From positions 1 through 64,000 of IMG/VR virus record IMGVR_UViG_3300010412_000003: a DNA stretch of 64,000 bases. One strand, given 5' to 3'. Within the stretch, counting starts at the first letter, position 1; each line of letters begins with the position of its first letter. The position numbers and the translations under genes were made by a program. Shown here in pieces: positions 7,632-18,127 of this stretch. Source of the DNA: a virus. The notes under the pieces are model-generated. The model searched no databases and was not told the origin of the DNA. It worked only from the letters and a program-made list of their open reading frames with translations.

Positions 7632-8063
7632 ATGAAAAATCAAATTGTTTATGATGAAGATGGAAATCCAGTAGGTGTTTTGGATATTAAAAAGGGAGAA
7701 TATCTTCCACTGCTAACCAATAAAGTTGTAAATGGTATTACAGAAATTGTTAACAGCACTGCTGAAAATGGAATTAGGGAACTGTCAAAAAATATTGTTG
7801 AAATGATCTTTGGTGGTGTTACAACTATTGTGGTTACTCGACATTCAAGTTGGGTTGCAGGGTTTCAGTATGACAGTTTGAATGAAGCTTTGATTGTTTA
7901 CACAAAGCGAGAAGGTTATAATGATGAACACATGATTAATCTTGATAAGTATTACACCATAGAAAATGTTACTTGGAGTGAGGTTTCTTATCTTATTGAA
8001 ACTGCAAAAGTTGGAAATTCTATTGGCAGGGTTATTCATAGAATGCAAAATGCTCGAAAATAG
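7632..8063 (+). CDS. KTSC-like domain protein, 143 aa
   Basis: N-terminal half: DEDGNPVGVLDIKKGEYLPLL and a helix. The C-terminal half (about 72-140) reads SSWVAGFQYDSLNEALIVYTK...YTIENVTWSEVSYLIETAKVGNSIGRVI, which follows the KTSC pattern (SS-x-I-x-x-x-G-Y-D...L-x-V-x-F...Y...V-P...A-x-S-x-G-x-x-x-N). KTSC domains are small beta-barrel modules often found near RNA-related proteins; their function is unsettled. The gene has its own promoter and directly precedes the structured RNA locus. Confidence 0.55.
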   Translation: MKNQIVYDEDGNPVGVLDIKKGEYLPLLTNKVVNGITEIVNSTAENGIRELSKNIVEMIFGGVTTIVVTRHSSWVAGFQYDSLNEALIVYTKREGYNDEHMINLDKYYTIENVTWSEVSYLIETAKVGNSIGRVIHRMQNARK

Positions 8064-8076
8064 ACTGACCAATTTC

Positions 8077-8104
8077 TTGACAAATAAAAAAAATCTGTTA
8101 TAAT
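8077..8104 (+). promoter_or_regulatory. Upstream promoter of the RNA locus, TTGACA-16-TATAAT
   Basis: TTGACA at 8077-8082 and TATAAT at 8099-8104, 16-base spacer: near-perfect consensus. A transcript from here would run through the inverted repeat at 8142-8187 and then into the structured RNA region. Confidence 0.75.
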
Positions 8105-8141: not shown

Positions 8142-8187
8142 AAGTCAAGGGAATTGCAGGTGGGAACTTGATGAATTCCCTTGACTT
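8142..8187. repeat. 14-bp perfect inverted repeat overlapping a -35 box
   Basis: Arms at 8142-8155 and 8174-8187 are perfectly complementary (14 bp, AAGTCAAGGGAATT type) around an 18-base loop. There is no U-run after it, so it is not a normal terminator. The right arm contains the TTGACT -35 box of the next promoter. It could be an operator for a dimeric regulator, or a hairpin in the upstream transcript. Confidence 0.7.
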
Positions 8188-8209
8188 GAAAATAAAATCA
8201 AGGTATAAT
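8181..8209 (+). promoter_or_regulatory. Second promoter of the RNA locus, TTGACT-17-TATAAT
   Basis: TTGACT at 8181-8186 (inside the inverted repeat) and TATAAT at 8204-8209, 17-base spacer. The expected start is near 8216, just before the first structured domain. Together with the promoter at 8077 this suggests strong expression of the RNA. Confidence 0.75.
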
Positions 8210-8238
8210 AAATAGGAAAGTTGGACTTTTACAAAAAA

Positions 8239-8429
8239 TATAATTGGCTTTTACGCCTCTTGATCTAAATATCTGATACTGGCTGTACACTGGTGTAGGG
8301 TGGGTCGCTCTACTAGGTGAGAGGATACATCCGAGGAAGGATGGGAGTATCACCTAATCAGATGGATACCAGAGGTACACTGGTGAAGATGGGGAGACTA
8401 TCTTCCAAGGGGCATAAAAGTCAATTATA
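8239..8429 (+). ncRNA. Structured RNA domain A, closed by a long-range helix of about 21 bp
   Basis: Bases 8239-8259 pair with 8409-8429 (about 20 pairs, two G-U, one mismatch). Inside are a hairpin with a CATCC/GGATG stem and GAGGAA loop at about 8327-8342 nested in a TAGGTGA/TCACCTA helix, and a GAAGAT/ATCTTC hairpin near 8385-8405. The 11-mer GTACACTGGTG occurs twice (8285-8295 and 8375-8385). No open reading frame of note. This is a compact multi-helix RNA that I cannot match to a named class by eye. It ends 5 bases before the tRNA-like domain. Confidence 0.7.
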
Positions 8430-8434
8430 AAAAT

Positions 8435-8555
8435 GGGGTTGATCGGTTTCGACAGGTCACAGGGATTATCAGTAGGTGAAAATGCCCTTGGTGAAGACAC
8501 TGAAAATAATCGTGAACTTGTGATTTGGACAGGGGTTCAATCCCCCTCAACTCCA
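8435..8555 (+). ncRNA. tmRNA-type tRNA-like domain with a miniature insert (no tag reading frame)
   Basis: The 5' part reads GGGGTTGATCGGTTTCGACAG, the tmRNA 5' signature, and the 3' part ends in a T arm and CAACTCC-A. The acceptor stem is 8435-8441 with 8548-8554 (7 bp, one G-U). The T arm has a stem at 8531-8535/8543-8547 and loop UUCAAUC. A P2-like helix pairs 8455-8461 with 8519-8525. The whole domain is 121 nt, against about 350-400 nt for ordinary tmRNA. The interior lacks space for the usual pseudoknots, and I see no tag-like frame ending in Ala-Ala and a stop. CCA is not encoded. The standard mRNA-like part has thus been lost or replaced. Confidence 0.75.
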
Positions 8556-8559
8556 CAGA

Positions 8560-9221
8560 ACTTTAATAACCATTCAGATGCAATATATCTGATAAAAAAA
8601 CAAATAGCATGGGTTGGTTGGATTTCCAGCAACCGTCAAGTTTCGTATAAAGGAAACAAGAAGAGTTATAAAACCTCTTCCATGTTATTTGCCAAGGAAC
8701 ATAACTTGGGTTGACTAGCCAGTAAAGTAGGGAAGAAGGGTAGTTTTGCAAACCACTGTGAGTTAGAAACGTAATCTGTCTCACCAGTTAGTAAGGCTAG
8801 CAAGTCCTTTGCAAGACTACTACGTGAAGGCAAAAATCTGGAAGCACCAGATCAGTAGAACGACTCCTACACCCAAGATATAAAATTATTGGTAAATTAT
8901 CGGTAGATGTTGGAACGTGCTATCATGGTTGGTGAATGGTCTTTGTAAAGCCACTAAAAGGTAGAAGACTAGACGGTAACTAAAACACCATGCAGGAAAT
9001 ACAATAACCTGCCTCACCAGTTCCAACAAAATTTTGAAGATTTTCAGGGAATGATAGGTTAGCCACCTAACTCTTAGGAGAGAAAGCAGATAAAAACTAT
9101 CTCCCAAGGATGGTTCTGTAGGGTACTGAGAGGAACAGACAACTGGATACTTGGGTTAGAAAAAATCCTATCCTCATGTAATGGCTTGTGGGGTTGTCAT
9201 TCCCTGAAAGTTTTCAAAACA
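8560..9221 (+). ncRNA. Large ornate structured RNA domain (about 660 nt), GOLLD/ROOL-like in character
   Basis: There is no credible gene here; helices dominate. Clear ones: 8660-8665/8675-8680; 8740-8752/8808-8820 (13 bp, one G-U) crossed by 8711-8720/8795-8803, implying a pseudoknot; 8836-8841/8847-8852; 8908-8916/9020-9028 (9 bp); 8992-8996/9008-9012; and a closing helix 9032-9054/9197-9219 of 23 bp with two G-U pairs. A module running from TTTGYAAA..CCACT to CTCACCAGTT appears twice (8745-8789, 8942-9022). Large size, repeats, pseudoknot and a neighbouring tRNA recall the giant phage RNAs GOLLD and ROOL, but I cannot confirm class membership by eye. The transcript probably continues to the terminator at 9673-9704. 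Confidence 0.7.
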
Positions 9222-9251: not shown

Positions 9252-9428
9252 ATGTTTAGCGAACTTGTTGCACTTTATGCTGGATTGTTTTTTGTTGTTT
9301 TCAGTTTTGTGGTAGAACCATCAAAGAATTTTGTGTCAAAACTTTTGTTCAAAGCAATTCCATTTATTTTTGGCATGTTGTTGTTGGTATCTTGGGCAAG
9401 TTTACGTGGTTGGCTTGTTATAGTATAA
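9252..9428 (+). CDS. Small two-pass membrane protein, 58 aa
   Basis: AAAGGAGATAAA precedes the ATG. Sequence: MFSELVALYAGLFFVVFSFVV (first hydrophobic helix), EPSKNFVSK (polar turn), LLFKAIPFIFGMLLLVSWASLRGW (second helix). It lies between the structured RNA and tRNA-Arg and is probably on the same transcript. No family recognised; a holin-like or envelope role is possible but unsupported. Confidence 0.65.
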   Translation: MFSELVALYAGLFFVVFSFVVEPSKNFVSKLLFKAIPFIFGMLLLVSWASLRGWLVIV

Positions 9429-9443
9429 AAAATGTAATAAAAT

Positions 9444-9516
<73 letters not shown>

Positions 9517-9545
9517 CCTTGTGAGATTATAAGGAGGTCGTGATA

Positions 9546-9672: not shown

Positions 9673-9704
9673 AAAAGTCCTCTATTTTATTAGAGGACTT
9701 TTAT
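9673..9704 (+). terminator. Intrinsic terminator ending the RNA-locus transcript
   Basis: A 12-bp perfect stem (9673-9684 with 9691-9702, AAAAGTCCTCTA type), 6-base loop, and T-rich 3' side (CTTTTAT). The A-rich 5' side makes it potentially bidirectional. It closes the unit running from the promoters at 8077/8181. Confidence 0.85.
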
Positions 9705-9717
9705 CTAGGAGGTAAAA

Positions 9718-17893: not shown

Positions 17894-18127
17894 ATGGATG
17901 CTGAAAAATTAATTTTCATAGAGTTGGAAGAGGCAATTGAGTTTGATAAAGATAACGCTTTACCTAAAGGTCTTTATGTGAACAGGGGTGGAAAGTGGTT
18001 TCACATGAATTTTGATGGTGGGTGGTTGTCAACTTCAAATTTTTGCATTTGTGATAAACACATTGTTACAACCAAATATATGAATAGTTTAATTGAAACC
18101 AAAAGTTTATCTTTGGGGAGATCATAA
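17894..18127 (+). CDS. Small hypothetical protein, 77 aa
   Basis: Starts 4 bases after the RecJ stop, with AAGGAATAGAAG upstream. Mixed alpha/beta sequence with Trp and Cys (KWFHMNFDGGWLSTSNFCICDKH). No family recognised. The stop directly abuts the next start. Confidence 0.55.
   Translation: MDAEKLIFIELEEAIEFDKDNALPKGLYVNRGGKWFHMNFDGGWLSTSNFCICDKHIVTTKYMNSLIETKSLSLGRS

Follow-up and report, generated by a model that had tools for sequence, protein, structure and literature searches.

A tRNA-like-domain-only tmRNA between two predicted structured RNAs in a phage, and its relatives in viral DNA

The window analysed here comprises the first 64,000 nt of a viral record 84,546 bases long (84.5 kb; IMG/VR IMGVR_UViG_3300010412_000003). 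The phage has genes for an integrase and for a phage replication set, for which a close relative is absent from the phage collection searched; its DNA polymerase is ~33% identical to the top matches, many of which are from Firmicutes or gut phages. The integrase gene lies 2 kb upstream of the RNA locus and we read the phage as temperate. Protein-guided synteny, using the 338-aa neighbour, gave no relative. The non-coding locus occupies positions 8216–9221 of the window (+ strand) and is preceded by two near-consensus promoters, in line with the tandem promoters claimed in the preliminary description. Promoter 1 (TTGACA-16-TATAAT, 8077–8104, +) matches the consensus at 12/12 positions and is one of two such sites in the entire 84.5-kb record; promoter 2 (TTGACT-17-TATAAT, 8181–8209, +) matches at 11/12 positions and is expected to start transcription near nucleotide 8216. 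The −35 element of promoter 2 is overlapped by the right arm of a perfect 14-nt inverted repeat with an 18-nt spacer (8142–8187; arms 8142–8155 and 8174–8187), a possible operator, hairpin or attenuator of which a second copy was not found in the record.

Between the end of an ORF at 8063 and the start of a 58-aa ORF at 9252, no credible gene was found: the ORFs overlapping the locus are short (93, 73 and 73 aa), and the 93-aa ORF begins within the tmRNA-like unit described below without an obvious ribosome-binding site. The GC content of the locus is 0.407, compared to 0.332 for the genome. Downstream follow (i) a 58-aa predicted membrane peptide (9252–9428, +), preceded by AAAGGAG and without a Pfam match, (ii) the tRNA-Arg that had been noticed nearby, a tRNA-Arg(UCU) at 9444–9518 (+) whose CCA is not encoded, and (iii) a 40-aa ORF. 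Behind them sits a terminator-like hairpin (9673–9706, +; AAAGTCCTCTA..TAGAGGACTTT followed by a T-rich tail), read from the sequence as the likely intrinsic terminator of the operon, and every part from the strong promoters to this hairpin lies on one strand. Far from the RNA locus, on the − strand, the phage has another tRNA cluster, with Gly, Trp, Asn, Pro and Lys tRNAs (L250 7224–8392; record 71224–72392).

The 5′ part of the locus is formed by domain A (8239–8429, +), a branched structure closed by 24-nt arms (8239–8262/8406–8429) of 88% complementarity, which agrees with the closure of about 21 bp proposed earlier. The 5′ region of 219 nt (8216–8434) folds at −82.2 kcal/mol, with z scores against shuffled sequences of −8.2 in one run and −7.5 in another, and the 150-nt segment of domain A is the most stable among 2,252 such segments of the record. 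Domain A contains two copies (8275–8298 and 8365–8388) of a 24-nt direct repeat, D1 (ACACTGGTG), and its closing helix ends 5 nt ahead of the tmRNA-like unit.

The 3′ ornate region (8559–9221, +; 663 nt) belongs to no known family and folds at −199.3 kcal/mol with z = −6.9 and −5.7 (two runs), whereas the mean z of 20 length-matched control stretches of this phage was −0.8 (sd 1.3, minimum −3.9). It divides into a sub-domain at 8740–8820 (+) closed by helix I3 (8740–8757/8803–8820), a sub-domain at 8909–9027 (+) closed by GTTGGAAC/GTTCCAAC according to sequence reading and the MFE structure, and a 3′-terminal sub-domain at 9032–9219 (+; z = −5.45). An 18-nt repeat, D2 (CTCACCAGTT), occurs twice in the region, once in each of the first two sub-domains (8772–8789 and 9005–9022), and is partly complementary to D1. 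The 23-nt helix said in the preliminary description to close a 660-nt domain at its 3′ end is present (9032–9054/9197–9219, 91% complementary), but it encloses the last 188 nt only. Since both flanks outfold shuffled DNA and the overlapping ORFs are short, the initial view of a large structured locus without a credible gene is upheld.

Between these flanks lies a tRNA-like-domain-only (TLD-only), CDS-less tmRNA of 121 nt (8435–8555, +), an assignment based on its match to RF00023, on covariation and on a shared arm architecture. The tmRNA family model matches at 8435–8558 with 66.9 bits (gathering cut-off 47), which substantiates the tmRNA-like domain recognized at first sight, and in the alignment 290 model positions are replaced by 41 nt. 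The acceptor stem pairs perfectly over 7 bp (8435–8441/8548–8554) with G3-U70 intact; it is followed by TTCGAC (8448–8453), an extended P2 arm (8454–8526), GGAC (8527–8530), the T arm and a discriminator A at 8555, and CCA is not encoded, as in the neighbouring tRNA-Arg. The stretch from TTCGAC to GGAC spans ~73 nt, compared to ~300 nt in a normal tmRNA. A tag reading frame is absent, with no Ala-Ala-stop in the unit and the model positions for tag and pseudoknots missing, and ARAGORN does not call the unit at 8435–8555. The sequence shows that this unit is the tRNA-like domain of a tmRNA, of predicted alanine identity, that its D-loop analogue and its T arm are intact, that it lacks a tag frame and has a family-specific extended arm, and that it is a member of a broad viral class. 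Its T arm and acceptor are 94% identical over 33 nt to Clostridia tmRNA, which may be taken as only a hint to the host. A match on a Monoglobus plasmid proved to be an ordinary tmRNA region beside smpB.

To collect relatives, IMG/VR was scanned twice with patterns and the matches were filtered for acceptor pairing, yielding at least 89 distinct TLD-only units of 73–136 nt: the one in the window, one on a bacterial contig (L093) and at least 87 on other viral contigs, an undercount because the scans used exact patterns. Members that were checked exceed the Rfam cut-off. The 89 units listed form 22 clusters at 80% identity. G3-U70 is found in 89/89 of them (the window and 88/88 relatives), with a filter that accepted any canonical pair at position 3, and Ala-Ala-stop in none. 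Acceptor pairs 4–6 and T-stem pairs 1–2 each occur as four or five pair types among the units listed, the acceptor counts being helped by the acceptor-pairing filter, while in the unfiltered P2 stem 5.53 of 6 pairs form when each strand keeps its partner and 3.72 (sd 0.08) when partners are swapped. The tmRNA-like unit thus passes a covariation check in its P2, acceptor and T stems across the units listed. SmpB was not found in 26 viral records, many of them short and most possibly fragments, in a search that was positive for 10/14 control genomes.

Compact TLD-only tmRNAs of 77–81 nt (L139, L148, L155, L175 and others) are common in IMG/VR, at least as many as those listed, and many carry a CCGCAYGCGG-type hairpin in the arm. 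Two TLD-only genes without RNA annotation occur in isolated phages: Streptomyces phage LuckySocke (L371 601–678; record 17977–18054, +; host S. lividans JI 1326) and Stenotrophomonas virus Jojan60 (L375 601–680). A stricter pattern, which fits seven of the viral units, gave five matches in 84,980 bacterial and archaeal genomes. One of these is a compact unit (L093 1414–1521) on a Candidatus Uhrbacteria MAG contig, which may represent a prophage or have been mis-binned from a virus; three (L095, L096, L097) lie within genes that ARAGORN calls full tmRNA, and the fifth (L094) has the same layout. Among rejected candidates, matches in human-gut phages are mostly full tmRNAs, first-scan matches such as L002, L007 and L009 look like two adjacent tRNAs, and L004, L011, L015 and L022 are full tmRNAs in which TTCGAC occurs by chance; the latter two groups were removed by the acceptor-pairing filter.

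Three further viral sequences were recorded in passing. Directly before tRNA-Gln, Microbacterium phage Dismas and its relatives carry a unit resembling a tRNA (L373 ~400–478), which combines a G3-U70 acceptor and a tmRNA-like T arm with GGTTCGCC in place of TTCGAC, and is possibly a divergent TLD. Synechococcus phage S-CAM1 carries a two-piece (permuted) tmRNA called by ARAGORN (L103 ~1946–2260; tag ANTSDSAANNIVAFSRSTVAA), unannotated in the record. Gordonia phage GodonK carries the 3′ end of a tmRNA-like gene (L102 ~2001–2034) without annotation or an ARAGORN call.

The long-arm form of the unit is shared by five unrelated phages, namely the window phage and those represented by L031, L032, L039 and L017, whose units were folded independently. 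In each, the arm runs from P2a through an A-rich 3′ bulge, P2b, an internal loop, P2c and a second internal loop to a small hairpin (P2d). The helix sequences are unrelated: own partners pair to 100% and swapped partners to 37% (P2b) and 50% (P2c), in a comparison of five sequences with hand-chosen segments. The first internal loop is AGUA/GAA in four of the five units, which corresponds to the bulged-G (loop E) consensus; when the arm loop motif was used as a search pattern, only L031 was real. The unit closest to that of the window is L031, 75% identical over 126 nt. Proteins of the long-arm phages show almost no similarity to those of the window phage: comparison of the loci gave three matches, all weak.

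Neither flank matches an Rfam family: cmscan gave no match at E ≤ 10 to GOLLD (RF02032) or ROOL (RF03087), and direct family searches found none for GOLLD at E ≤ 1 and no match for ROOL, although no positive control rang in either. Covariance models thus exclude GOLLD and ROOL at their own level, and membership of either family, whose resemblance was raised at the outset, is not supported. A group I intron, theta ribozyme or riboswitch as the identity of the locus likewise found no Rfam match. The apparent pseudoknots of the preliminary description are unsupported because no pair of predicted free loops is complementary over ≥6 nt. Both blastn of the flanks against phages and plasmids and repeat-motif scans of IMG/VR with blastn/nhmmer follow-up returned chance matches only, and those inspected closely fall in coding DNA. 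None of the collections searched yielded a relative of the flanks, so that their structure rests on one sequence; by folding statistics on that sequence, both flanks are predicted to be strongly structured RNAs. In other phages the unit mostly stands by itself, separated from adjacent features by short gaps, and the longest of the flanking gaps (up to 632 nt) gave z values from 0.2 down to −3.6, all above those of the flanks described here. Among the phages checked, two orphan structured RNAs flank the unit only in the window phage, and they may be regarded as candidates for a new large-RNA class.

The interpretation we favour, to which we assign about an even chance, is that of one operon from which the tmRNA-like unit would be excised as an alanine-charged SmpB decoy that blocks host trans-translation, the flanks acting as GOLLD/ROOL-like RNAs. 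The operon would consist of two sigma-70 promoters, domain A, the TLD-only tmRNA, the 3′ ornate RNA, the 58-aa membrane peptide, tRNA-Arg, the 40-aa peptide and the terminator. RNase P and RNase Z would excise the unit as 121 nt plus an added CCA, and AlaRS would charge it. The charged unit would then bind host SmpB and EF-Tu and, at stalled ribosomes, compete with the tmRNA of the host; as it cannot supply a tag frame, trans-translation during infection is proposed to be blocked or rerouted. Excision would also free the flanking RNAs, which may act separately, perhaps assembling into structural RNAs like GOLLD and ROOL. A decoy or poison is the simplest reading because G3-U70 is present in 89/89 units listed, a tag frame is absent and no phage SmpB was seen. 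The SmpB decoy idea draws on one experimental precedent: the tmRNA of phage DS6A is reported to be ‘little more than the TLD’. Strong inhibition of tmRNA, perhaps via SmpB titration, is reported for a molecule similar to it (PMC4131195; PMC11915505). Arm conservation in the long class exceeds the needs of a bare decoy, and we count it against this reading.

The same charged, SmpB-bound molecule might instead be a CDS-less rescue helper, accepting the nascent chain before another factor releases it, a role that has been put forward for tagless tmRNAs of mitochondria. For the phage unit it is unlikely by our estimate: tagless mitochondrial tmRNAs are kept together with SmpB (PMC11915505), yet phage SmpB was not seen in the 26 records, and the TLD-only precedent is reported to inhibit tmRNA. 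We hold it similarly improbable that the flanks are strongly palindromic DNA (a replication or packaging site, or an old insertion) that folds by chance. The lack of flank relatives in any collection searched would fit such DNA, but the + strand outfolds the − strand in both flanks (−82.2 vs −57.0 kcal/mol for domain A; −199.3 vs −179.2 kcal/mol for the 3′ region), which fits RNA with G-U pairs, and consensus promoters aim into a locus of raised GC content.

Slightly more doubtful still is a single RNA machine in which domain A, the unit and the 3′ domain stay covalently joined in a GOLLD-like manner, with the charged TLD displayed or caged. The locus would then represent a new giant phage RNA class, itself no better than doubtful, in which a chargeable tmRNA-like domain within a ~1-kb scaffold captures SmpB, EF-Tu or stalled ribosomes. 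The GOLLD linker between 5′ and 3′ regions sometimes holds tRNAs (PMC12286853), the tRNA-like unit of the window likewise lies between 5′ and 3′ structured domains, and D1 and D2 offer partial complementarity across it. However, GOLLD and ROOL matches are lacking, domain A is self-closed 5 nt before the unit, an acceptor stem with perfect pairing is a substrate for RNase P and RNase Z, free loops complementary over ≥6 nt do not occur, and units in the other phages checked are without strongly structured flanks. That the unit is a decayed tmRNA captured from a host, persisting next to unrelated structured DNA as a neutral remnant or as the relic of an integration site, is very improbable: the temperate lifestyle with an integrase 2 kb upstream and the 33-nt Clostridia match would suit this reading, but it is contradicted by compensatory stem changes across 22 clusters, by a G3-U70 never lost in the 89 units listed, and by the shared arm architecture and perfect acceptor pairing.

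Of 97,179 tmRNA genes in a 2025 database, 9 are of the ‘standard, no CDS’ form, DS6A being the phage case (PMC11915505), and DS6A is the only phage TLD-only case described in the open-access literature searched. Message-less tmRNA was previously a curiosity; at least 89 distinct units are now at hand, nearly all on viral contigs, and stripped-down tmRNA copies are, as judged from these sequences, widespread in viral DNA. The invariant alanine identity and the absence of a companion SmpB among the records searched suggest that phages may commonly block or steer the ribosome rescue of their hosts, an idea that is directly testable because unannotated TLD-only examples occur in isolated phages. 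The flanking orphan RNAs provide a lead on the roles of GOLLD/ROOL-like RNAs around tRNA-like units.

GOLLD and ROOL are the nearest analogues of the structured flanks. In GOLLD, a linker in which tRNAs are sometimes found lies between a variable 5′ region and the 3′ region, and the RNA forms 14-mer cages (PMC12286853). The locus resembles it as a phage RNA of the same size class with structured 5′ and 3′ regions near tRNA genes; it differs in holding a tmRNA-like unit where the GOLLD linker sometimes holds a tRNA, and in giving no covariance match. ROOL is likewise a large phage RNA near tRNAs and differs in size and in the covariance match. With bacterial tmRNA (RF00023) the unit shares the G3-U70 acceptor, the TTCGAC D-loop analogue, P2, GGAC and the T arm, whereas tag frame and pseudoknots are missing and its length is 121 nt instead of ~350 nt. 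The tagless tmRNAs of jakobid and oomycete mitochondria also lack a tag reading frame, but are mitochondrial, usually permuted and partnered by nucleus-encoded SmpB. The closest likeness is to the ‘standard, no CDS’ tmRNA of DS6A: both have standard gene order and consist of a phage-borne tRNA-like domain without CDS or tag frame, and the window unit differs in its long structured P2 arm (~73 nt from TTCGAC to GGAC) and its two large structured RNA flanks. The preliminary description stands in its structured locus, tmRNA-like unit, promoters and tRNA-Arg, and is not supported in its pseudoknots and in a GOLLD/ROOL affiliation; the combination it found unfamiliar is better described as a TLD-only tmRNA of the rare but known DS6A kind accompanied by two orphan RNAs.
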